Position numbers and translations under genes: made by a program | Notes under the pieces: model-generated | The model's input: only the letters and a program-made list of their open reading frames with translations | What the model was told of the DNA's origin: nothing | Databases searched by the model: none | Source of the DNA: a virus | IMG/VR virus record: IMGVR_UViG_3300033153_005209 | Location: 1-51,518 of that record | DNA: 51,518 bases | Reading direction: 5' to 3' (one strand) | Shown: one piece after another, positions 1,748-33,373 of the stretch | Position numbering within the stretch: position 1 is the first letter of the stretch | How the letters are laid out: every line of letters starts with the position of its first letter

Positions 1748-4700
1748 TTAAACAACACATACAACTTTAGTAGTTCCAGAACCACCTAGTTCAGTGGCTG
1801 TTTGAGTAAAGAAATCTCCAGTACTTAAACTCCCATTTGAAGTTGGTAATCCTACTACAGACAATTTACTTCCTGGAGAATTGTTATTAATTCCAACATT
1901 TCCATCCCCTTTTAAAATCATTACTTCAGCTTGTGAGCTATCTGTAACCCCATCATGTATATTAAATTTAATATACGAGTTTGTGGAAGTTGTACTAAGA
2001 TTCATAATCGAGTTAAATCTAAACCCGTCTGTATTTCTATTAAGTCTAATGGCCTCCCCCTCAACACTAGCTGCGGGTGCAAGACTTAATAAAGCATCAG
2101 GAGAAATAATTCCAATTCCAACCTTTGCATTAAATGCTAATATTTGATTTGCGGTAGCTGTATCATTAACTCCATAAATCAATGCTTTAGTCCTTGCAGT
2201 AGCTTCATCTACTTGTTCAATACTAGTTAAAGAAGAAATAAGTAATTTATCACTTCCAGTTTCAAACCAGCCAGCATTATGACCTATAAATATATCGCCA
2301 GAATGACCAGTAGATAAACTATTTCCTGTTCCAGTACCTATCAAGACTGTTTCAGATATGTCTGTAGCATTTGACGCAATCCAAGTACCTAATCCAACTA
2401 CACTTGTACCAGTAACTAGTTTACTAAGTGTATTTGTACCAATGGCAATTGTTTGTGTTACAGACGCTGTAACTGTAGGATCTAAAGCAAGATTACCTAT
2501 ACCTATATTATAACTACCAGTGAAATTATCATTTTGACCCGCATTACCAAAAAACCAATTTTCTGTACCTACACTAGATTTAAATACATAAGTGGAATCT
2601 ATAGCTATTTCTAAAGATTCATTTGCAGCAGGGTTTAAAACAGTTCCTTTGATACCAACACCTTCAGCTATAGACCCAGCTAAATATGAACTATTAGTAT
2701 CATCTACAGTTACCTTTACTTTATTTGCATCTGTAATTAAAGCAACTGTACCATCAATATCTTGAATAGCTAAAGTTCTTGTAGTTGCAGTAGTGAGCCC
2801 ACTAACGTCAAAAGCTAATTCTTTTGTATTATCTAGAACATTAAATACTCTAAATAAATTATCCGGATGTTCCACATCAGCTATAGCACTACCTCCTCCA
2901 CCACCAAGAGAGTCTAATAAATTTTCTGTTAATATTTCTGTAAAGGTTCCTGATGCGCCTGTTTGATACCTTAATACTATTCTTGCTATAGGAAATCCTA
3001 CGCCTCTATATTCTCTGGGGATAGTTTGATCCGTGTAGTCAGAAATATCTGATATAGCACTTGTCTCATTAGTATAAAATCCTGAAGGTGCATTACAAAA
3101 ATATTTACAATCTGTGGCATCTTCATTCACAGCACCCCATACAAATATAGAGTAATATGTATTATTAGATCTTAAAGTCGCTCCTGTAGAATCAGTATCT
3201 ATTATACTTAAATCTGTTATTCTATCATATTTTGTTGTAAAATCATTTACAACCCAAATAGGTGTTCCTGTTTGCATATCTAATGCAGGAAAAGCATGGT
3301 TGTGTAATTGATAAGCACTACCAGAAGTAGTAGCAAAATATACATTATCTATAGCTCCCCCATTAATTACTATGGTTGTAGTTTGTGCTACACCGCTATC
3401 CCATGATACAGGTCTATTTCGTATCCATTTATTTAAATGAGCTAAATGCCCCCCATTACTCGAATCAGCTAAGTGATCTGTCCATGCATGTACTTTATAC
3501 GCACCATCATTTTGTACTCCTGTAGCACTTTGTACTACTACAGTGGCTACTGCGACATATTGACCTCCTGGCCAACCCACTGTGCTTACAGTTAATACCC
3601 TTGTACTTTCAGGTATATATATATAATTTTCTGTTGGAGCACTGTCACTACCAGCAGTCAATATTATACTAGCTGGAGCAGTAAATACATAAAACACCCC
3701 ATTAAAAAATAGGGATAAATCATTTACTGCGTCAGCATTATCCAAAGTTAAAGTTACATCAGCACTATCAGAAGTTACAGTTACAGCATGATCTTCTAAT
3801 ATAGCACCATTAAATATTTTTATAACATCTTGTGTATTAGTACCAGTTTGCAATAATACTTCTCCGGTACCCTCAGTTGCATGTGAATGAGAAACCTGCC
3901 CAACTTTTATAACATAGTTGGGGGAAGGTGGTGGTGTATCTTGATAGAACCCAGGAATAGTTGCCGATAAATAAGCAGTTGTTCCTGCTACCATGCCAGA
4001 AGTATCAAAATCTCTAACTTTACCTGAAGTAGTTATTATACAAGGATTGTTGTTTAAGACATTATGAGTAACTGAACCTATTATTCCAAGAGCTTTTGTA
4101 GCATCATTAGCTATAGCATATGCTACAGTTGGAACCCATTCTAAACCATAGCCTAAATCTATTTCTATTTCCCCACTAATATATATAAAACTACCATTAT
4201 CTAGTTGACCGCCACTATTATTATAAGCTCTAAACCATTGCTCGTGTCCTACTTGTAAAGAAGTATCTGAAATATCACTATAAATAGTCATAGCATGATT
4301 CATCTTATCATAGAAATATCTACCTTCGGAGTGACTAGGTATAGGATCTAATAATGCGAGATCGATATATCCTGTATTGGATATTCTAAATAAACTAGTT
4401 CCTCCAACAGCTAAATTTAATAAATTATTTCCATCCCCAGAACTCCCATCTCCCAATGCTGTTTCAGTAACATCAATCTTTAACCCATTATATGCGGCTA
4501 TTCCACTTTGATTAATTCCTGCTTCAACTGAAATCCATGATTGTTCCGCAGTAGTGCTTGTTAATTTACCGCCACTTGAGGAATAAAATTGATACGGTGC
4601 TTTTCTATTAGCACCGGAATTAGGAAATGATGCTGCACTTACATTAAAAGTAATGCCATTATTACTTGTCGAACGTAATGATGGATAGGCACCAGCAAAT

Positions 4701-5803
4701 GCTTCTATATACATTCCTCCAGCTATCATTCTAACATCGCCATCTTCATCAACTTGAAAAGCTGTTGCTTTTAAATTACTTCCTACATTTAATAAAACAG
4801 AATTTGATATAGCTGCTGGTACATAAATATTAACTGATCCAACTCCTTTACTCTTAATGTCTAAATCTATATCAGTATCAGTACCTTCTGCTGCTATAAT
4901 TACAGCATCTGTTGTAGCACTACCCGTAATATCTAAATAATTAACATTACTGGTTACTATATTTGTATGTAATGGCGTACTTGTAATTGCCCCTGTATTA
5001 GCAATAGTAAATATTTGATTATCCGAAATATCCAGAAACTCTGCAATTAAATTGCTATCTGTACCTTTAACAGTTAAATATTCATTAGTACCATCCGGTT
5101 CAAATGAAGCAAAAGAATTTCCTGATGTAGAATTTATTTTATAGGCTTCAATGGCAGCTACAGAATCATCTATATATTTCTTTGTCCCTACATGATAGTC
5201 AGCAGTAGGAGTAAAGATAGTAGTGTTTGTAGTTCCAGCTAATGTACTCGTATAATTACTTATCTGGGAAGCAGTTATATTTATATTACTCATCACATTA
5301 CTAGGTAAAACACTTAATTCTTCAACAGTTCCAGCACTAGTAAAAGTACCAAGTAACCCTTGAATAGTCATATCTTGTATTTTATCATATGTTACAACAT
5401 CAGGTTGTATTGTAAGTAAGGAGGAACCTGTTACATCACCAGTATGTATAGCATTAGTAATCTTAGCAGTATTTAAAACTACAGCAGAATTAGCAGCTAC
5501 AGCAGAATCAAAATCTGTTATATTAGAAGCTATGTGAGTATGTCCAAGTAAAGAATATAAATCAACATGGTCTCCCCATCCATAGGCAGTGTTCCAATTA
5601 ATTATTTCTACTAATGTAATATTAAAAGCAGGACTAGCTATAAATATTGGATCTGATTCATGCATAGCTGCTGTTACAAATTCATCTATAGTAGCTATAT
5701 AAACCAAACCGTCATCGTCTTGAAAGGTAACTTCTTCATAACCTTCTATACCACCTATTTTCTTCTTACCTTTTATTATTTTACCGTATTCTTGAGTAGC
5801 CAT
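1748..5803 (-). CDS. Large tail fibre/spike protein (1351 aa)
   Basis: A 1351-residue protein rich in S, T, G, N and A with repetitive beta-type sequence, as in trimeric phage fibres. The N-terminal block (about residues 1-45) holds GGIEGYEEVTFQDDDG followed by YIAT, and closely parallels the start of the next fibre upstream (5820-6614), so it probably docks onto the same virion partner. Around residues 60-100 comes the fibre motif NWNTAYGWGDH followed by LLGHTH. A GGGGGS linker lies near residue 970. The C-terminal third has VGIG..SP and VGINNNSPGSKLSVVG repeats typical of distal fibre shafts. No S74 chaperone catalytic pair is visible; the protein ends TTKVVCVV. It probably contacts the host surface. 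Confidence 0.8.
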   Translation of the reverse strand: MATQEYGKIIKGKKKIGGIEGYEEVTFQDDDGLVYIATIDEFVTAAMHESDPIFIASPAFNITLVEIINWNTAYGWGDHVDLYSLLGHTHIASNITDFDSAVAANSAVVLNTAKITNAIHTGDVTGSSLLTIQPDVVTYDKIQDMTIQGLLGTFTSAGTVEELSVLPSNVMSNINITASQISNYTSTLAGTTNTTIFTPTADYHVGTKKYIDDSVAAIEAYKINSTSGNSFASFEPDGTNEYLTVKGTDSNLIAEFLDISDNQIFTIANTGAITSTPLHTNIVTSNVNYLDITGSATTDAVIIAAEGTDTDIDLDIKSKGVGSVNIYVPAAISNSVLLNVGSNLKATAFQVDEDGDVRMIAGGMYIEAFAGAYPSLRSTSNNGITFNVSAASFPNSGANRKAPYQFYSSSGGKLTSTTAEQSWISVEAGINQSGIAAYNGLKIDVTETALGDGSSGDGNNLLNLAVGGTSLFRISNTGYIDLALLDPIPSHSEGRYFYDKMNHAMTIYSDISDTSLQVGHEQWFRAYNNSGGQLDNGSFIYISGEIEIDLGYGLEWVPTVAYAIANDATKALGIIGSVTHNVLNNNPCIITTSGKVRDFDTSGMVAGTTAYLSATIPGFYQDTPPPSPNYVIKVGQVSHSHATEGTGEVLLQTGTNTQDVIKIFNGAILEDHAVTVTSDSADVTLTLDNADAVNDLSLFFNGVFYVFTAPASIILTAGSDSAPTENYIYIPESTRVLTVSTVGWPGGQYVAVATVVVQSATGVQNDGAYKVHAWTDHLADSSNGGHLAHLNKWIRNRPVSWDSGVAQTTTIVINGGAIDNVYFATTSGSAYQLHNHAFPALDMQTGTPIWVVNDFTTKYDRITDLSIIDTDSTGATLRSNNTYYSIFVWGAVNEDATDCKYFCNAPSGFYTNETSAISDISDYTDQTIPREYRGVGFPIARIVLRYQTGASGTFTEILTENLLDSLGGGGGSAIADVEHPDNLFRVFNVLDNTKELAFDVSGLTTATTRTLAIQDIDGTVALITDANKVKVTVDDTNSSYLAGSIAEGVGIKGTVLNPAANESLEIAIDSTYVFKSSVGTENWFFGNAGQNDNFTGSYNIGIGNLALDPTVTASVTQTIAIGTNTLSKLVTGTSVVGLGTWIASNATDISETVLIGTGTGNSLSTGHSGDIFIGHNAGWFETGSDKLLISSLTSIEQVDEATARTKALIYGVNDTATANQILAFNAKVGIGIISPDALLSLAPAASVEGEAIRLNRNTDGFRFNSIMNLSTTSTNSYIKFNIHDGVTDSSQAEVMILKGDGNVGINNNSPGSKLSVVGLPTSNGSLSTGDFFTQTATELGGSGTTKVVCVV

Positions 5804-12234: not shown

Positions 12235-13722
12235 CTAAGCTGCTAAACTGTGTAGCAACGTTGCTGTTCTAGAAGGATCCAGTACAGTTACTGCTTGACA
12301 CGCATAACGTGTGTAAGTAGCTGAATCTTCCATAGTATTCATTGTAGAATTAACTTCTCCTGTAAAAGGATTCCTAAATCCACTCATATAACCTCTGAGT
12401 TCTCCAGTACCTGTCTCTACTTTTTGAATATTAGGTTCTTCTTCTGATCCCATATATAAAATGTCGTAACGATAAGACTCGACTACACCACCTTTGGGAT
12501 GTAATTGTTTATTACGTACTTTATCATCATATAAAGCATCTACTTCTAGTTTAACTCTAATATTGTTAGGTGCAATCCACTCAGTGAATTGATATCCAGC
12601 CGACATAGCATTTGGATGAAGTTCAGAACTTGTTTGTTTAATTAAAGATGGATGATTTCCACCACGTAAACTAACCCAGCCTGATGCTTCTGCAGTTACA
12701 GCTCTATTAAAAGCAATAGCACCTCTAGTACCTGTGCGAACCATAAATTCACGATCTTTGAAGTCTATTTTACCTTCTACCATATCAGATAGAATAGATT
12801 CTAATAAATCTAAACTAAATTCATTGTAGAAGATAGTATTAGATACTTCCATCTGTTCACGAACACCTGCACCTTGTTTAATAAAGAATCCAGATTTCCC
12901 TATGTCATGATAGGTTCCATCTGCACTTCTATTAGAACGAGAATACATGCAAGCTCTTGACTTTTCTTGAGACCATTGTCTCTCAAAACTCCACTCAGCA
13001 TATTGCATCCATACTGTAAATGTTTTCTTTTCTCCTTTATCTGTTACACCTACAGCATCTGTAGACATACGTCTATTAAGAAGATTACCAGGTACTTTAT
13101 GTTCCATACGAAGAGTAGTGAAACTCTGTCGCATATCAATAGGAGCAGCAAAATGTATTTCACCACCTTTTACTGACATTGTATCTTCTACCGGACTAAA
13201 GTCCTTAGAGAATAATTTACCTCCTACTAATTCAGCTCCTGGTACACCTAAAGTATTGGCACCCATTAATTGAGTTTCATACACCCAGCCTTTGGCTGAC
13301 CTTATAGGTTCAGAGATAACTCTGAATTGATAAATCTCGTTTTTCTCTCCTACTAATACATTAACATCTGAAAAATAATTTTCTGGAAATACTAGGTTGA
13401 TAATCGTTCCATTAGCACCAACATTATTGTCACTGCTTGTAATTGGAGTACCTGCTTCCTGATAAGCTGAAAGTAAGGCTACATTTTTATCATCACTGCC
13501 TACTAGTTTCCATGTGAAATCATCATCAGTGTCTAAACGCTTCATAGGAAGTCTTGACAATACTGTATCTAAATTATTAAGATTTGACGCCGATAAGATT
13601 TTTATCATCGTCTTAGAAAACAGTTGTTGATTCTGACCGAACATAGCTCCTAAATGGTTTTTGGTTGTAAGACCATTCCAATTAAACGCCTCAGTCATTT
13701 GAAAATTTCCGAATTGTGGCAT
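12235..13722 (-). CDS. Major capsid protein (crAss-like)
   Basis: A 495-residue protein in the capsid position, directly after the scaffold-like gene; its length agrees with crAss-like capsid proteins (about 490 residues). The N-terminus (MPQFGNFQMTEAFNWNGL, then GQNQQLFSKTMIKILSASNL) is followed by a mixed alpha/beta body with EHKVPGNLLNRRMSTDAVGV, WMQYAEWSFERQWSQEKSRA and a region rich in aromatic residues, consistent with an HK97-type fold, though the fold itself cannot be proven by eye. The C-terminal part has TGELRGYMSGFRNPFTGEV. The gene ends in TAG, unlike most genes here, and is followed by a hairpin. Confidence 0.85.
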   Translation of the reverse strand: MPQFGNFQMTEAFNWNGLTTKNHLGAMFGQNQQLFSKTMIKILSASNLNNLDTVLSRLPMKRLDTDDDFTWKLVGSDDKNVALLSAYQEAGTPITSSDNNVGANGTIINLVFPENYFSDVNVLVGEKNEIYQFRVISEPIRSAKGWVYETQLMGANTLGVPGAELVGGKLFSKDFSPVEDTMSVKGGEIHFAAPIDMRQSFTTLRMEHKVPGNLLNRRMSTDAVGVTDKGEKKTFTVWMQYAEWSFERQWSQEKSRACMYSRSNRSADGTYHDIGKSGFFIKQGAGVREQMEVSNTIFYNEFSLDLLESILSDMVEGKIDFKDREFMVRTGTRGAIAFNRAVTAEASGWVSLRGGNHPSLIKQTSSELHPNAMSAGYQFTEWIAPNNIRVKLEVDALYDDKVRNKQLHPKGGVVESYRYDILYMGSEEEPNIQKVETGTGELRGYMSGFRNPFTGEVNSTMNTMEDSATYTRYACQAVTVLDPSRTATLLHSLAA

Positions 13723-14901: not shown

Positions 14902-17193
14902 TTACTTGCTATTGCTACTTCGCACTTTTTCTCTATTCATTTCTATCTCTGCTTGTAATTTTTTAATAGCTAATAATCTTTCTGAATTATTTGAAACAGT
15001 TTCAGCACTTAGTTTCTCCGTCTCACCTTGTTGTTGCATCTGTTCTATTAATACTTTAGTAGCATTATTACTATCAATTTCATACTGCTTGAGGTCTCTT
15101 TCTGCTTGTTTATCAGCAGCTTCTGCCTGTAATTGTTTATCCTGCATTTGTACAGCTTGTTGTTGTGCTGCCTGTTCTTGCTCAGATATTTCTTGTTCTG
15201 CTAGTTCTATCTTACGCATCTTTTCGGTAATAGAATCAGAAAACATAATATCCATTACTACCCCAAGTTTACCACTGTTTTGCATAAATGCATGAGCTGC
15301 TTGGTTAAGTAATTGTTCTCTTTCTTTAGTTTTATTATCTGAAACTATAAAGATATCGTAATCATTTTCTGATAATTCATCACCATCTATTTCAAATAAT
15401 TCTGTAGAGAAATCGTCAAGAATATTCTGTAATTTCTTTTTATTACCTCTTAAGGCTACTTTAGCTGTTTCAAGAAATATAGATAAGGCTCTAATTTTAC
15501 AGTTTTCATGTTTGTTAAATAACCAAGCTGTAGTATTAGAAGATTGCATTACTGATCTCTCTACTCCTCCTACAGTGTCGTGAGTAGAGATAGCTCCTTG
15601 TCTTTGAGCTGTAATACCAGTTATCTCAGACATTTCAGCTTTTACATATTCTAGTAAGTTGATTGTTTGCTGGATGTAATTTCCTGTATCTGTATCTAGT
15701 ACTTTTCCTGTGGTATTGAAATTACCAGCTAGTTTTCCCTGAGCGTGACCTGAAGTTCCCTCATTGAAAGAATCAATAAACATTATACCAAACTTAGTAG
15801 CATAATTTAACCATTGATGAACACTCCAACCTTTAGGTTTTTTAGACATATCCATCTCTACAATTTTACCGAGATTCTTAGTTATAGCTTTATTTAATCT
15901 ATCCCATAGAATATCATACATATATTGATAGGATTTCATTCTATCCATCATAGAAGTGGAGGTACCTTGATTCGTATTATAAATTTCTCCTACAATTCCT
16001 GGATGAGCTCTGGAAGGATTAGACATTCTATGATATTGTACCGGCATAGGTTCTATTACTGGATAAATATCTGAACCAATCTTGCAACCATGCCACCACT
16101 CTCTTACCCACAATCTTTCTATAGTCTCTCCTCTAGAAGGATCTGCTATATATTCTTCAGCTTCCAGTTTAAATTGGACATCTCCATTATCATCATAATA
16201 CTTTACTCTATATATTAACTTTAAAGAACTCCAATACACTCTTAAAACTCTAACGTTACCACTATTATCAGTAAAGTTATCATTAAAATGATGACCCTCA
16301 GTTTCTGCTACTTGTAAATAGCCTTCTGTAATAGTACCATTTTCTCCTATAATAAAACTATCTCTAAAACCTTCTTGGTTGAAATGACTTTCATTAGAAG
16401 TATATCCATCAGATATTCTGTCTATTTCATCTTTTTTAAGTTTATCATAGTAGTTATCTAATATTCGACCTGGGGCCCAGTGATCTTCTATAACAATAAT
16501 ATCAGCATCCTCTATTCTACTGGTATATCCACTTCTTATTGTGTGTACTTTAATAGGATTTAATTTTTCAAAAACCGGTTCCGAATCTAAAATTGAGCAT
16601 TGATATATTTCTTCCCCATGAATTAAAGCATCTTTAAAACCTTCAGTGAATTTAGCTTTCATATCTTGTTCTAACCAATAGTGTTCTAGTAATTTAGTGG
16701 CTCTAACTTCTCTTATATCTTTCCACTCATACTGTAAATAGATTTGAAATTTCTTAAGTCGTGCATTAGATTCTTCCTCAGACATTTCCGCATCTAGTAA
16801 CTCACTAATTTTCTTATTAACAGTTTCTTTTCTATATTCTTGCTTTTGCGATATACCATCACTATCCCCTACAATTACTGACCATTTGAAAGGACTCTTT
16901 AGTTCTTCACCTACTAGTAAGTCTATTTTAGGGACTGCTATCGGATGGTGGACAATATTATTAGGGATAGTTTCTGCAACTGTATTATAAGGATTAATCA
17001 TCTGCATCATGTCAGCGATATTTAAATGCCCTTCATAAAGCTCTTGATTAATTATTTTAGTATGGATCCTTCTTCTAGTACTGCTGTTATTATATAAAGA
17101 AGTAGAATTATCTATAGAATCTACGCATTCTTTTCTCCACGTTTTAGTTTTCTTTCTGTAGGATTTTCTCTGTGCCGGTAAATTTATGTCCAT
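14902..17193 (-). CDS. Portal protein
   Basis: A 763-residue protein following TerL. It begins with a basic segment (QRKSYRKKTKTWRKE) and has the portal pattern of mixed alpha/beta wing (LLVGEELKSPFKWSVIV; ATKLLEHYWLEQDMKAKF), a region of beta strands with WEDHWAPGR-type aromatics, and a crown/stem region after about residue 440 (MDRMKSYQYMYDILWDRLNK; GISTHDTVGGVERSVMQSSN-like stretch). The C-terminal 120 residues are a long glutamine-rich coiled coil (AEQEISEQEQAAQQQAVQMQ). Such length and the Q-rich barrel fit crAss-like portals. The gene lies 27 bases after TerL, with a promoter-like element embedded in the TerL 3' end. Confidence 0.85.
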   Translation of the reverse strand: MDINLPAQRKSYRKKTKTWRKECVDSIDNSTSLYNNSSTRRRIHTKIINQELYEGHLNIADMMQMINPYNTVAETIPNNIVHHPIAVPKIDLLVGEELKSPFKWSVIVGDSDGISQKQEYRKETVNKKISELLDAEMSEEESNARLKKFQIYLQYEWKDIREVRATKLLEHYWLEQDMKAKFTEGFKDALIHGEEIYQCSILDSEPVFEKLNPIKVHTIRSGYTSRIEDADIIVIEDHWAPGRILDNYYDKLKKDEIDRISDGYTSNESHFNQEGFRDSFIIGENGTITEGYLQVAETEGHHFNDNFTDNSGNVRVLRVYWSSLKLIYRVKYYDDNGDVQFKLEAEEYIADPSRGETIERLWVREWWHGCKIGSDIYPVIEPMPVQYHRMSNPSRAHPGIVGEIYNTNQGTSTSMMDRMKSYQYMYDILWDRLNKAITKNLGKIVEMDMSKKPKGWSVHQWLNYATKFGIMFIDSFNEGTSGHAQGKLAGNFNTTGKVLDTDTGNYIQQTINLLEYVKAEMSEITGITAQRQGAISTHDTVGGVERSVMQSSNTTAWLFNKHENCKIRALSIFLETAKVALRGNKKKLQNILDDFSTELFEIDGDELSENDYDIFIVSDNKTKEREQLLNQAAHAFMQNSGKLGVVMDIMFSDSITEKMRKIELAEQEISEQEQAAQQQAVQMQDKQLQAEAADKQAERDLKQYEIDSNNATKVLIEQMQQQGETEKLSAETVSNNSERLLAIKKLQAEIEMNREKVRSSNSK

Positions 17194-17207: not shown

Positions 17208-17239
17208 CAAATCTACTGAATTATTGATACATATCAAAA
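17208..17239 (-). promoter_or_regulatory. Candidate promoter for the portal gene
   Basis: On the - strand TTTTG (17239-17235), exactly 19 bases, then TAGATTTG (17215-17208). This is the textbook spacing of a Bacteroidota promoter, overlaps the last codons of TerL, and would start transcription only a few bases before the portal start codon, giving a very short leader. Confidence 0.6.
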
Positions 17240-20200
17240 CTAGTAGTATAAGGGTTATCTTGAAAGAATGGATCAGAACTGTAAGCCATTTTATCTTTGT
17301 TTTTTGCATTTTCCTTATTTAGCTCTACGTATTTAATTTTACTAGCTCTTAGAATAAAAAGCATTATACCCCCAGATACTCTGTCAAAGTTACCATCCGG
17401 ATTCCACTGAGCACATTCTTTTAAATACCCTATAGATCTAATCCTGTGTAAATTTAGCTTATCATTAGGATCAAAAATATTTTTTGTCATCATCCAATCT
17501 GCTTGCATCCTTCTCCCCCAAGAATTTATAGCTGGTGTAGGTGGTGTACCTTTGGATTTATTTCCTGTAGCATATTTTTGCTTAATGTATTCCATATCCT
17601 TAAGAACTTCAGGAGTATCAGCCAAATAACTCAAAGCATTCATTCGTTCGAAGTAAGAGAACATACCTTTTAATTTATTCTCATAGTTTATTTCCGCATT
17701 GTAATATATAGCTAACTTTAATGCTATCTCATAATTACTATCAGCTTTTGGCATTCTGCCTGTATATTCTGCTACTATAGAATCAGTAAATAAATCCATT
17801 ATCCAAACATTAAATAAAGAAGTACCTTCATCATCATCCACTGGATCACAGCCACCTATGTACCTCCCCCATGGCGGCTTTATTTCTCCCGAATTGCATT
17901 TGGCTAATTCAAATAATTCTATAGCTCCAGTTCTATCTTTACCCTTAAAAGGCCAATCTCTAATAGGTATATCTGTAAAATTTGGTTTAAATTCTACATG
18001 TCCTGAAGGAGACCAATTTAATTTACCCACATAATGTTGTCCAACAAAATGTTCTCTGGTAGGTTCTATAGAAGTAAGATATTCTTTAATATCTGCAGAA
18101 GGGAATATGGTACCTTCAGTTCTCATTACAGCTTCTTGAGGTGTAATAGGGCCTTCAGCTTTTACTTGTGCAAAATCTGTAGCGTCAGAAGAATTATATT
18201 TTACTTCTAGTCTTCTCTCTATAATTTGCACTAATGCTTTTACTACATCTGAATTCCCATTTTTATCGTAGCAATCTGCTATATCCATATAATCAGGCAC
18301 AAAGAATGCGCAAACACCATTTTCTGCATTTTTATCCCAGCAATTATTTACATGATATACTTGATAAGCTTTTGAAGAATAAAAGAGAGATTCTAATCCT
18401 ATAAAGTCTACACCTTCTTCACCGCCCGTATTGTGTGTAACAATACCATTAGCTATATATGTATGACTTCCTGCAGTCTGTAAATTATACACATCCTGAG
18501 AACCTATGTCTTTTACACTAAGCACTCGTTCAACCCTCAATCTCTTTAAATGAGAGCTCCTTCGAGAAACACTAGAAGAATGAAAAACTAAATCTAATCT
18601 ACGCTGTTTTTCAGTTACTTTAAATTTTATGTTTTTGTTAAAAGTTATCACACTATCTACATCAGAAATAGTAAGTCTATAGTACCCACTTTTATCTTTA
18701 GGATTTTTAAGATTGGGTTTTACATAAGATACTATTCCGTGAATGCCGAATCTATTAAGCAATACCATAGTTTCTAACATTAAATTCTTACATGCAGAAG
18801 TTAGTATTATTTTTACAGTTCCTGTAGTTGTCACATATACATAACCATCTGCATCAAAGAATCCCCCCAGCATTTCTCTTATAGACGCTATATTAAAAGA
18901 ATCTATATTAGTAGGAAGAGTTTTATTACATTTTGTTTGTGTATAAATTCCTAAGTTACGTAACTCACAAGTTATACCTCTAATTCTAAGTTCTTTATAA
19001 AGTCTACCATCCTTTGTAGTATAACTTTTTTCTACAACAGTATCAAAATTAGATTCTACATACTTGTTAATATCTGCATCAGCATTAGATAATACGGGAG
19101 TTTTATTCTTACCATAACTACCATCACCAATTAATAAACCTATTAATCTAGGATTCCACATTTCTTTTGTACCTGTGATAGGAACTGTATCTATAACAGC
19201 AAGTTGCTCTCCTACTTTTATATCTCCTGCTGGTTTAAATAAAACTTTCTTTTTTAAATCTCTTTTATCTAAAGTTTTACTGTTTCCATCTCGTAATCTT
19301 TTCGAAGAATGTAAATGTTGTGTACTCCACAGAATAGGGTGATCAGTACTACACTCAATAGTTCTCCCTGTATTAGTAACGAGTTTAACACATTTTTTCT
19401 TAAAGGGTGCTTTGAACCCTTCGATATGTTCTAAACTTATTCCCTCAGAAGTGTATCCTAAAATACCATCGGATTGGTTTAAATTTTCTATGTTACAGCT
19501 AGTACCATCAGCTTTATATACCTTAGTACCTTTACATACACAACCAAAAGCCAACATAAAACCAAATACACGAGAGCCTTCTTCTAAAGATCTTTGAGCT
19601 AACCTCCAGGATTTCAATATATAAGGAAATGAATTATGAGTTATAGTAAAATCTTCAGTTAAAAATAAATGGTCTTTATTTAAAGTAAAACCGTAGTAAT
19701 CTGACACACCGTAATAACTTACATCAAATCTGGTAGAGAGAGAGTCTTTTAAAAATCCTTTTCTATCTTCAGATTTTTTTCTCTCTATTAAACAAGGAAT
19801 TCTAGAATGCCCATATAAAATAGTGACTCTATATTGAATTTGCCCTCCTCTTATAAGTTTACCTTTATAAAATCTAGGTCTGGAAATTCTTCTGTCTCTA
19901 GACACTTTCATACCTAAACTTCTGGCTATAAAAGTTATTTTATCGATTATTTGTTTTCTATTACCATGTTGTGTAATTTGCATAGCCTTTTTTCGGTGAC
20001 TATAAGATCCGTCAGAATCTATAAGCCCTGCCAAAAGTTCTAGTCTTGACTGCTCATCTGTATAAATATAACCATCCGGTATATGTTTATTGTTTAAAAC
20101 ATTTAATTCTTTTAACTGCTGTCTTAACTTTGAGGATTTAAGGTATATTCTTTTACAATCAGTACCTTTTATGTCTGTTATCTGACATTCAACATTAATT

Positions 20201-21558
20201 TCTTCAGCATATTTTTGAAGATAGTTTATTACTTCAATGTCTGTGTTACCGATTCTAGTTCTATCTGAGTCTCCATCTCCAAGCCAAAGACCTAATAAAT
20301 ATGGGGGAATAGATACTTCTTTTTTATTGAAGTGAACTATACCCGGTCTTACTAAAGAATAATTACTTTTTCTTTTTGGGTATTTTTTAATTTCATCAAT
20401 GTACTCTATAGGAGTAATTGTTTTATAGTTTGGGTTACTTCCTTTATATTGTTTTAGATGTTTTACGTGAATCTTATGTCTACTATTAACTACCTGTTCT
20501 ATACCATTTTTAGGTGTAACTCTATACATATCATCACAGCCTTTATGAGTTTCTAAAACAGTCCTAGATTCACTATCAGGACCAAGTAATTTATCCCCTA
20601 TTATTATATCCTCTACATTTTTTAAAAATCCATCAGCCATTATGATTTTGGTACCTTTAATATGACATCCTGCCTCCTCCCACACTATTAATTTACCTCG
20701 TTTACCTCTAGCTTTATCGGGATCATTCTTTAAAGTAACTCCTATAATCTCAGATTTGAATCCATATTCTCCAGCATTACCTTGTTTCTTATAGCCGGCT
20801 TTTTTATGCATTAATTGATCGATAAGAGTTAATTTCTTAGCAAATCCTACATTATTAATAACAAAAGAAAATATATCCCAAGTTTTATTTAATACACCAT
20901 CTGTAGTTAAGTACTCTGTATCAGAAGCTAAAGCAAAAGATCTACTATCTTTAAATAAGAAATAATTTCTAGCTAACATAGAGGCCGCTTTAAAAGAATA
21001 ACCTTTACCTCTGGCCTTTAGAACAGTACCGTATTTTCCAGCTTTTTCAGCTTGGTCTACATAGTGATAGAATAGATAATCCCCATCCCAGAAGTCAGGG
21101 AATCCTGCCACACGTTCTGCCCTAACTGTACCGTCTTCATTTCTTATACCGACTATCTCTGTTTTTAGAATTGGAGAATAGTTAAGATAAAAATAGTGAT
21201 ACCCTGTAATCCATTCTCCATCAGACTTTCTAACTAAACCTTCTTTACACCTTCTAATTTCTTCGTCCCAAAACTTTTTATAAGGAGAAGAAGGAGATCT
21301 AGAAGGGTAATAATTTGTATATTTACCAGTTTTCTTAAAAGTAATAGCTGCTTTTCTAAAATAATCTACATCCTCTAATATATGAGGTTTTGTAATATCT
21401 ACAATTATTTTACCTTGATTATCTCTATCTAAATCTTTAGCATAAGGTCTTTCTTTAGATACCATCCAATGTAAAAGGGGAATCACATCAAGCAATTCCC
21501 TTATCTCATTGTACAATTCTGTACTTGGCTTAGCTATTTTATCTAAATCACTAATCAT
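17221..21558 (-). CDS. terL: Terminase large subunit with two inteins
   Basis: A 1445-residue precursor. Removing residues 298-642 (intein 1) and 673-1043 (intein 2) leaves a 729-residue terminase, a normal size for this phage group. N-terminal ATPase: a Walker A-like ARGKGYSFKAAS near residues 185-195 and a Walker B strand KLIVWEEAG ending at residue 297, exactly where intein 1 is inserted. The 30-residue middle piece ends MLAFG, where intein 2 splits the coupling motif before TGGEEG. C-terminal RNase H-like nuclease: GGCDPVDDDEG, then INYENKLKGMF and a later conserved region. The packaging motor threads DNA through the portal encoded next. Start codon overlaps the end of the preceding gene. 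Confidence 0.93.
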   Translation of the reverse strand: MISDLDKIAKPSTELYNEIRELLDVIPLLHWMVSKERPYAKDLDRDNQGKIIVDITKPHILEDVDYFRKAAITFKKTGKYTNYYPSRSPSSPYKKFWDEEIRRCKEGLVRKSDGEWITGYHYFYLNYSPILKTEIVGIRNEDGTVRAERVAGFPDFWDGDYLFYHYVDQAEKAGKYGTVLKARGKGYSFKAASMLARNYFLFKDSRSFALASDTEYLTTDGVLNKTWDIFSFVINNVGFAKKLTLIDQLMHKKAGYKKQGNAGEYGFKSEIIGVTLKNDPDKARGKRGKLIVWEEAGCHIKGTKIIMADGFLKNVEDIIIGDKLLGPDSESRTVLETHKGCDDMYRVTPKNGIEQVVNSRHKIHVKHLKQYKGSNPNYKTITPIEYIDEIKKYPKRKSNYSLVRPGIVHFNKKEVSIPPYLLGLWLGDGDSDRTRIGNTDIEVINYLQKYAEEINVECQITDIKGTDCKRIYLKSSKLRQQLKELNVLNNKHIPDGYIYTDEQSRLELLAGLIDSDGSYSHRKKAMQITQHGNRKQIIDKITFIARSLGMKVSRDRRISRPRFYKGKLIRGGQIQYRVTILYGHSRIPCLIERKKSEDRKGFLKDSLSTRFDVSYYGVSDYYGFTLNKDHLFLTEDFTITHNSFPYILKSWRLAQRSLEEGSRVFGFMLAFGCVCKGTKVYKADGTSCNIENLNQSDGILGYTSEGISLEHIEGFKAPFKKKCVKLVTNTGRTIECSTDHPILWSTQHLHSSKRLRDGNSKTLDKRDLKKKVLFKPAGDIKVGEQLAVIDTVPITGTKEMWNPRLIGLLIGDGSYGKNKTPVLSNADADINKYVESNFDTVVEKSYTTKDGRLYKELRIRGITCELRNLGIYTQTKCNKTLPTNIDSFNIASIREMLGGFFDADGYVYVTTTGTVKIILTSACKNLMLETMVLLNRFGIHGIVSYVKPNLKNPKDKSGYYRLTISDVDSVITFNKNIKFKVTEKQRRLDLVFHSSSVSRRSSHLKRLRVERVLSVKDIGSQDVYNLQTAGSHTYIANGIVTHNTGGEEGVDFIGLESLFYSSKAYQVYHVNNCWDKNAENGVCAFFVPDYMDIADCYDKNGNSDVVKALVQIIERRLEVKYNSSDATDFAQVKAEGPITPQEAVMRTEGTIFPSADIKEYLTSIEPTREHFVGQHYVGKLNWSPSGHVEFKPNFTDIPIRDWPFKGKDRTGAIELFELAKCNSGEIKPPWGRYIGGCDPVDDDEGTSLFNVWIMDLFTDSIVAEYTGRMPKADSNYEIALKLAIYYNAEINYENKLKGMFSYFERMNALSYLADTPEVLKDMEYIKQKYATGNKSKGTPPTPAINSWGRRMQADWMMTKNIFDPNDKLNLHRIRSIGYLKECAQWNPDGNFDRVSGGIMLFILRASKIKYVELNKENAKNKDKMAYSSDPFFQDNPYTTSFDMYQ
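18430..19542 (-). other. Intein 2 in TerL (371 aa, LAGLIDADG endonuclease)
   Basis: Begins with Cys (CVCKGTKVYKADG), has block B ECSTDHPILWS with the T-x-x-H signature, two endonuclease motifs (RLIGLLIGDGSYG and MLGGFFDADGYV), block F VYNLQTAGSHTYIANGI and ends VTHN with Thr as first C-extein residue. All splicing residues (Cys1, block B His, penultimate His, terminal Asn, Thr+1) are present, so splicing should be active. Inserted between MLAFG and TGGEEG in the TerL coupling motif. Confidence 0.92.
19633..20667 (-). other. Intein 1 in TerL (345 aa, LAGLIDADG endonuclease)
   Basis: Begins with Cys (CHIKGTKIIMADGFLKN), followed by DIIIGDKLLGPDS, a block B with NSRHKIHV, LAGLIDADG motifs YLLGLWLGDGDS and LLAGLIDSDGSY, and ends DHLFLTEDFTITHN with Ser as first C-extein residue. 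Cys1, His-Asn and Ser+1 are intact. Block B lacks the usual Thr three residues before His (S-R-H), a mild deviation. Inserted directly after the Walker B motif WEEAG. The two inteins share little sequence outside motifs, so they look like independent insertions. Confidence 0.92.
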
Positions 21559-33273: not shown

Positions 33274-33373
33274 GAATAGATGGCGGAATGGTAGACGCTA
33301 ACGTCTGAGAGATAGAAAAAGAAAGTTATAATAGTTACGCTTTTTCATGTGGGTTCGAATCCTACTCTGTTCA
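33274..33373 (+). tRNA. Leu-like tRNA with long variable arm and abnormal anticodon stem
   Basis: Acceptor GAATAGA pairs with TCTGTTC (33366-33372) at all seven positions (one T-G), discriminator A. D arm TGGCGGAATGGTAGACGC is typical of tRNA-Leu. T arm GTGGG-TTCGAAT-CCTAC is good. The variable region has a 7 bp helix GAAAAAG/CTTTTTC with an 18-base loop, longer than usual. The anticodon loop position reads CTGAGAG, which would give GAG (Leu), but its stem (AACGT against ATAGA) pairs at only two positions. It may be decayed, or folded differently. Confidence 0.55.

Follow-up and report, generated by a model that had tools for sequence, protein, structure and literature searches.

Two inteins of different families, probably acquired separately, in the large terminase subunit of a crAss-like phage

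The window, i.e. the whole 51,518-nt stretch of DNA analysed here (IMG/VR virus record IMGVR_UViG_3300033153_005209, positions 1 to 51,518), was recognised as a fragment of a crAss-like phage (Crassvirales) by its genes for the terminase large subunit (TerL), portal and major head protein, which lay in crAss-like order (PHROGs 6681, 6547 and 11589); its other arm carried a family A DNA polymerase and a DnaB-like helicase. The TerL precursor was encoded by a single open frame comprising three exteins and two inteins, as follows.

17221..21558, minus strand: TerL precursor ORF, 1445 aa, single open frame, PHROG 6681 (terminase large subunit, 1.3e-91)
20668..21558, minus strand: N-extein of 297 aa with LIVWEEAG at its end; identity to intein-free contig L211 reaches 68%
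20995..21012, minus strand: RGKGYS, residues 183-188, which we take to be a P-loop-like motif; uninterrupted in the window
20668..20691, minus strand: Walker B stretch LIVWEEAG, residues 290-297
19633..20667, minus strand: intein 1, 345 aa, CHIKGTK to ITHN (C1 ... HN, then S), with Hom_end_hint and Hom_end
19870..20043, minus strand: LAGLIDADG_3 match in intein 1 (24.1 bits, above cut-off), covering the second motif, DSDG
19543..19632, minus strand: middle extein, 30 aa, ending in the coupling-motif strand FMLAFG
18430..19542, minus strand: intein 2, 371 aa, CVCKGTK to VTHN (THN, then T), with Intein_splicing and LAGLIDADG_3
18628..18882, minus strand: LAGLIDADG_3 match in intein 2 (54.2 bits, above cut-off)
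17221..18429, minus strand: C-extein, 402 aa (18429-17224) and stop codon; TGG of the coupling motif (TGGEEG), then the nuclease half
14902..17193, minus strand: portal gene, PHROG 6547 (8.8e-144), adjoining the TerL ORF downstream, without an intein
12235-13722: major head protein gene, PHROG 11589

The exteins amounted to 729 aa (297 + 30 + 402), the middle one reading SFPYILKSWRLAQRSLEEGSRVFGFMLAFG, and GC content was alike in the five parts (29.9-35.6%). A sequence-only reading had reported two full inteins in a crAss-like TerL at 18430-20667; on the minus strand this proved to be the exact span that opens with the first base of intein 1, at 20667, and closes with the last base of intein 2, at 18430. 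Its 30-residue gap between the inteins and 729-residue extein agreed with our reading of the junctions, and the presence of the two inteins with the Pfam, PI-SceI, structure and PHROG 6681 matches. The tailed-phage large terminase fold (ATPase and nuclease) was recognised through a model of intein-free L211, which matched T4 gp17 (9.4e-13, the best match) and other terminases; full-length TM-scores of this model against terminases were low (0.26-0.30), perhaps owing to domain arrangement.

The C-extein gave 136 matches among 50,697 phage records, all below 60% identity, the best being crAss-like at ~40% (e.g. 40% to the cr111_1 TerL), and megablast of the locus against the phage records gave no match, i.e. 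no close named relative was found. Insertions of both introns and inteins are described in other gut phages (PMC12363816). Across the window there was no intron or intein infestation: Rfam detected three tRNAs but no intron, and LAGLIDADG_3 matched nowhere but in the two TerL inteins. A tRNA-like Rfam match at 33274-33373 (plus strand, 36.7 bits, 100 bases) had no ARAGORN call, and an ARAGORN tRNA-Ser at 2819-2911 (minus strand), within a 1351-aa ORF (1748-5803), had no Rfam call and was probably false.

Intein 1 matched Hom_end_hint (Pfam, 3.5e-20; 73.4 bits against a cut-off of 32.1) and Hom_end (6.3e-13; 49.3 bits against 21.1), and PI-SceI matched its sequence at 3.6e-21; on these matches it is a PI-SceI/VMA-type element with a predicted HINT fold. 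Its LAGLIDADG motifs read GDGD (the first, upstream of the LAGLIDADG_3 match) and DSDG, with the acidic residues kept. In 28 aligned members of the family C1, H64, D131, D217, D219 and N345 were invariant, and N61 and H344 were found in 27 of the 28. Block B of intein 1 is N61-x-x-H64; that of PI-SceI also has Asn at the position of N61.

In a maximum-likelihood tree of 28 intein 1 relatives, the window and contig L091 joined at 100/100, and their sister pair (100/99) was formed by the inteins in the portal genes of cr118_1 (L006) and L092. The remaining 24 members lay at P-loop-like sites, read by eye as xK/(S or T) or G/(S or C)xKS (a slash marks the junction). The two crAss-like portal inteins (L006:3501-4562 and L092:5001-6065) were 44-47% identical to intein 1 and were inserted not in TerL but at GREGGK/S of the portal, a P-loop look-alike. 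PHROGs 36964, 19299 and 15, annotated as “terminase large subunit”, matched the intein part of such genes (e.g. residues 301-587 of the window's precursor, and the inteins of the portal genes) and can therefore mislabel intein-bearing portal genes as terminase.

The LAGLIDADG_3 domain, found on the precursor at 2.6e-23, was present in both inteins. Intein 2 matched Intein_splicing at 1.5e-7 (31.7 bits, below the 35.8-bit curated cut-off), and its sequence match to the gp41-1 intein, the only one obtained, was confined to the C-end of the latter (6.1e-5). Its AlphaFold model (pLDDT 90.2) matched whole homing-endonuclease inteins in the PDB, i.e. TliVMA (6.9e-18, TMq 0.67) and PI-SceI (1.3e-16), and the HINT fold was present in this predicted structure. 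The LAGLIDADG motifs were GDGS and DADG, again with the acidic residues kept. Nine residues (C1, S65, H68, D140, D230, D232, T369, H370 and N371) were invariant in 30/30 family members. In agreement with the earlier statement, splicing residues and LAGLIDADG motifs were intact in both inteins. Non-catalytic cysteines were also kept in the intein 2 family (C51 in 30/30, C64 in 29/30 and C3 in 19/30 members), a possible redox lead.

With few exceptions, members of the intein 2 family were inserted at the coupling motif of a terminase. One of them, in MT835482.1 (L004:3501-4568), occupied the same junction in a TerL that the crAss-like model missed, which suggests transfer between distant terminases. 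In L155, L159-L164, L167, L168 and L171 the same lineage was shifted by a few residues (GTGG/C...HN/T instead of G/C...HN/TGG), and the shifted inteins present in the intein 2 tree formed one supported clade. Another relative (L174:3276-4406) had seemingly lost its terminal HN and may be decaying. A scheme in which mixed intein halves splice so as to skip the 30-residue middle extein was set aside because the two inteins come from different families.

To place the junctions in the ATPase, the model of L211 (mean pLDDT 86.6) was used, its residue numbering near both sites being common to that of the window extein. A predicted strand at 290-293 was followed by E295 and G297, both present in 141/141 intein-free relatives, and junction 1 fell at 297/298. 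Intein 1 had been described as sitting directly after Walker B; the junction does follow WEEAG, but it lies two residues beyond the invariant E295, at the end of the stretch and not inside it. A second strand (322-327) ended at junction 2 (327/328), in agreement with the claim that intein 2 splits the coupling motif (MLAFG/TGGEEG). S188 of the P-loop-like motif was likewise present in all 141 relatives.

G327 and T328 were invariant in the 141 intein-free relatives, so that splicing at site 2 would be chemically possible in any of them. Residue 298, the +1 residue of site 1, was Ser in 40 and Thr in two (42/141) and mostly Lys or Leu in the others, and splicing there would be chemically possible in about three in ten. 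Intein-free homologues matching at neither junction, named earlier as a finding that would speak against the inteins, were thus not what the relatives presented. Once both inteins are removed, the spliced protein should regain an intact ATPase core.

To see how widespread such inteins are, viral contigs were searched. The C-extein alone found no relative in them; relatives came from alignment queries, four scans of which yielded at least 280 loci. A TerL match was present in 218 loci; four of them repeated a contig represented by another locus, and at least 214 contigs remained; 10 phage-record loci and the window's own locus were excluded or counted separately. After omission of 26 contigs with fewer than 580 of the 729 model positions, 188 were surveyed. 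Their TerLs contained no intein in 144 cases, one in 36 and two or more in eight, the last figure overstating the independent cases since near-identical contigs (e.g. L142, L143 and L144, which look like the same phage) were counted apart. These proportions also depended on the query: the 145 contigs found with the extein had none (141), one (4) or two (0) inteins, and the 34 found with intein 2 had one (27) or two or more (7).

Inteins in the surveyed TerLs were located at 187/188, 283 and 297/298, at or a few residues beyond 327/328, and at the nuclease motif near 518. The P-loop-like site (187/188) was occupied in cr111_1, L142, L160, L168, L177 and L178. Among the matches listed, the Walker B site was used only by the window and L091, and it was paired with the coupling motif only in the window; none of the eight multi-intein TerLs among the 188 surveyed had this pair of sites. 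Two terminases each had three inteins in one ORF, i.e. L129:1359-6863 (1835 aa, same contig as L134; coupling motif, nuclease motif and NFDR/C) and L178:2934-8543 (1870 aa; P-loop, coupling motif and NFDR/C). The third intein of each, after NFDR near the C-end, was read by eye, and Hint domains were found there.

Homologues with empty sites were L211, lacking both inteins, and L091, lacking intein 2. The exteins of L211 were 65% identical to those of the window, and its two empty sites had Ser and Thr at +1. Those of L091 were 76% identical; its intein 1 occupied exactly the junction used in the window and was 60-61% identical to the window's, and its coupling motif (MLSFG/TGGEED) was uninterrupted. 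Between the window and L091, dN/dS was ~0.17 (0.292/1.67) for intein 1 and ~0.16 for the N-extein (0.144/0.89) and C-extein (0.186/1.13), all imprecise since dS was near or above 1. Intein 1 thus resembled the exteins, which, on these large and rough dS values, points to lasting constraint on the intein.

In the TerL tree, the window fell inside a group with seven relatives that lack intein 2; these had been hand-picked as its nearest relatives retrieved from a single collection. The window's own intein 2 had no supported place in the intein 2 tree, where its branch was long, and its identity to other members did not exceed 51%. Broad groups recurred in both trees by inspection. The TerL tree left out ten duplicate loci and loci with a C-extein below 250 or above 520 aa; the intein 2 tree was built from that set after removal of the rows lacking intein 2 and manual addition of eight others, and the long-branch rows L138, L179, L159 and L174 were kept in. 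The simplest reading of these trees is a recent gain of intein 2 from an unsampled source.

Alternatively, both inteins might be ancestral in this terminase clade, with one or both lost from L091, L211 and others. The relatives are a small hand-picked sample in which parsimony cannot separate gain from loss, and intein 2 is widespread at the coupling-motif site of other crAss-like TerLs; against this, several precise losses would be needed in the clade, and the window's intein 2 stood apart (with weak support) from that of the next TerL clade. We consider such an origin unlikely.

For intein 1, the tree suggests a move between the portal and terL genes of crAss-like phages. When the DNA of the occupied portal and TerL sites was compared, 2 to 31 of ~832 codon positions scored equally well; with the empty L211 site 29 to 300 positions did so, i.e. 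that site did not stand out. Ectopic homing through similarity of site DNA is therefore only suggestive.

Taken together, we give a probability of roughly 0.85 to the reading that this crAss-like TerL contains two separately acquired inteins of different families, each with a splicing domain and a LAGLIDADG homing endonuclease. Intein 1 would have arrived before L091 split off, from a lineage also present in crAss-like portal genes, and intein 2, which stems from the terminase coupling-motif lineage, later and solely on the branch leading to the window. After translation each intein would be removed autocatalytically along the class 1 route (Cys1, +1 Ser/Thr and terminal Asn), neither depending on the other and without a fixed sequence of events. 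The 729-residue protein would work as a packaging ATPase only once both inteins are out, at a price of two excisions per subunit, and it is plausible that the precursor is inactive until both inteins have spliced. In the DNA, each endonuclease would cleave alleles that lack its intein, at its own site, and the intein would be copied into them, which would explain its persistence. Conserved motifs would serve as sites because they offer the most dependable target DNA and +1 residue and because any loss there must be exact.

A different view is that the inteins were recruited as a packaging checkpoint, with timed or ordered splicing (e.g. gated by redox or DNA) setting the activation of the motor. 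Both inteins do interrupt the ATPase core, cysteines are kept in the intein 2 family as given above, and conditional splicing is documented for the two inteins of Mycobacterium smegmatis DnaB (PMC6195587). However, the intein described there as slow and redox-sensitive is the one without an endonuclease, whereas the endonuclease-bearing one is fast and unresponsive; close relatives make the same terminase with one or no intein; and intact endonucleases suggest selfish upkeep. We find such a checkpoint improbable. The earlier suggestion that splice order may regulate packaging likewise gained no support, since the patchy distribution of none, one or two inteins and the intact endonuclease motifs point to mobile elements. 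A two-lock version, in which neither excision would free the ATPase by itself, the inteins would differ in their chemistry and rate, and oxidation would restrain intein 2 (C51 and C64) until the time is right for packaging, appears a little less credible again, and a move of intein 1 between the neighbouring terL and portal genes seems much likelier than it.

It is very improbable that one or both inteins are splicing-dead, the gene being dead or its protein used in pieces: decay does happen, as L174 without its HN end seems to illustrate, but all known splicing residues were intact here and the exteins of the window-L091 pair were under purifying selection. An artefact joining different phages, conceivable in a virus record that comes from an assembly, can practically be dismissed, given one frame through five parts of like composition (GC range as above) and the independent occurrence of intein 1 at the identical junction in L091.

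On the reading of two separately acquired mobile inteins, the window can be set beside known systems. Two inteins at once at these sites had been called noteworthy, but terminases with two inteins are already in print (PMC7886860 and PMC7156551), and the multi-intein TerLs of our survey (8/188) add to them. The TerL of the delta-group crAss-like phage OBYQ01000140 is described as three in-frame fragments with two inteins (Yutin et al. 2021, PMC7886860), and an intein is said to be typical of delta-group TerLs (PMC7886860; repeated in the review PMC10136315). This phage and the window are alike in the number of inteins of a crAss-like TerL, and OBYQ01000140 differs in its TAG recoding and in inteins described as of Hint-Hop type (PMC7886860). 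The TerL of cyanophage Mic1 also has two different inteins, for which the same idea of packaging control was proposed, but one lies in the ATPase and the other in the nuclease domain, and in the part of that paper drawn on here an endonuclease is described for the large intein only (PMC7156551).

The mycobacteriophage inteins TerL1-e (Walker B) and TerL6-f (coupling motif) lie at the same two motifs as those of the window, but are described in separate proteins and belong to other phage and terminase families (PMC5050341). TerL inteins of Dulem virus 41/42 and MT835482 belong to the intein 2 family (41-46% identical; junction G (or A)/C...HN/TGG) and, unlike in the window, are single. In haloarchaeal MCM, neighbouring inteins are described as able to hinder each other's homing (PMC10643990). 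In open-licence PMC papers no report was found of the Walker B end and coupling-motif pair, of a crAss-like portal intein or of a three-intein TerL; the three inteins described in PMC7344957 lie in three different genes.

The window thus adds an apparently unreported pair of sites to a known pattern, TerL as an intein magnet. L211, L091 and the window form a natural series of one terminase with none, one and two inteins, which lends itself to tests of splicing order, of cost and of the interference of neighbouring inteins in homing, and the sister relation of TerL and portal inteins suggests that inteins may relocate between adjacent packaging genes.
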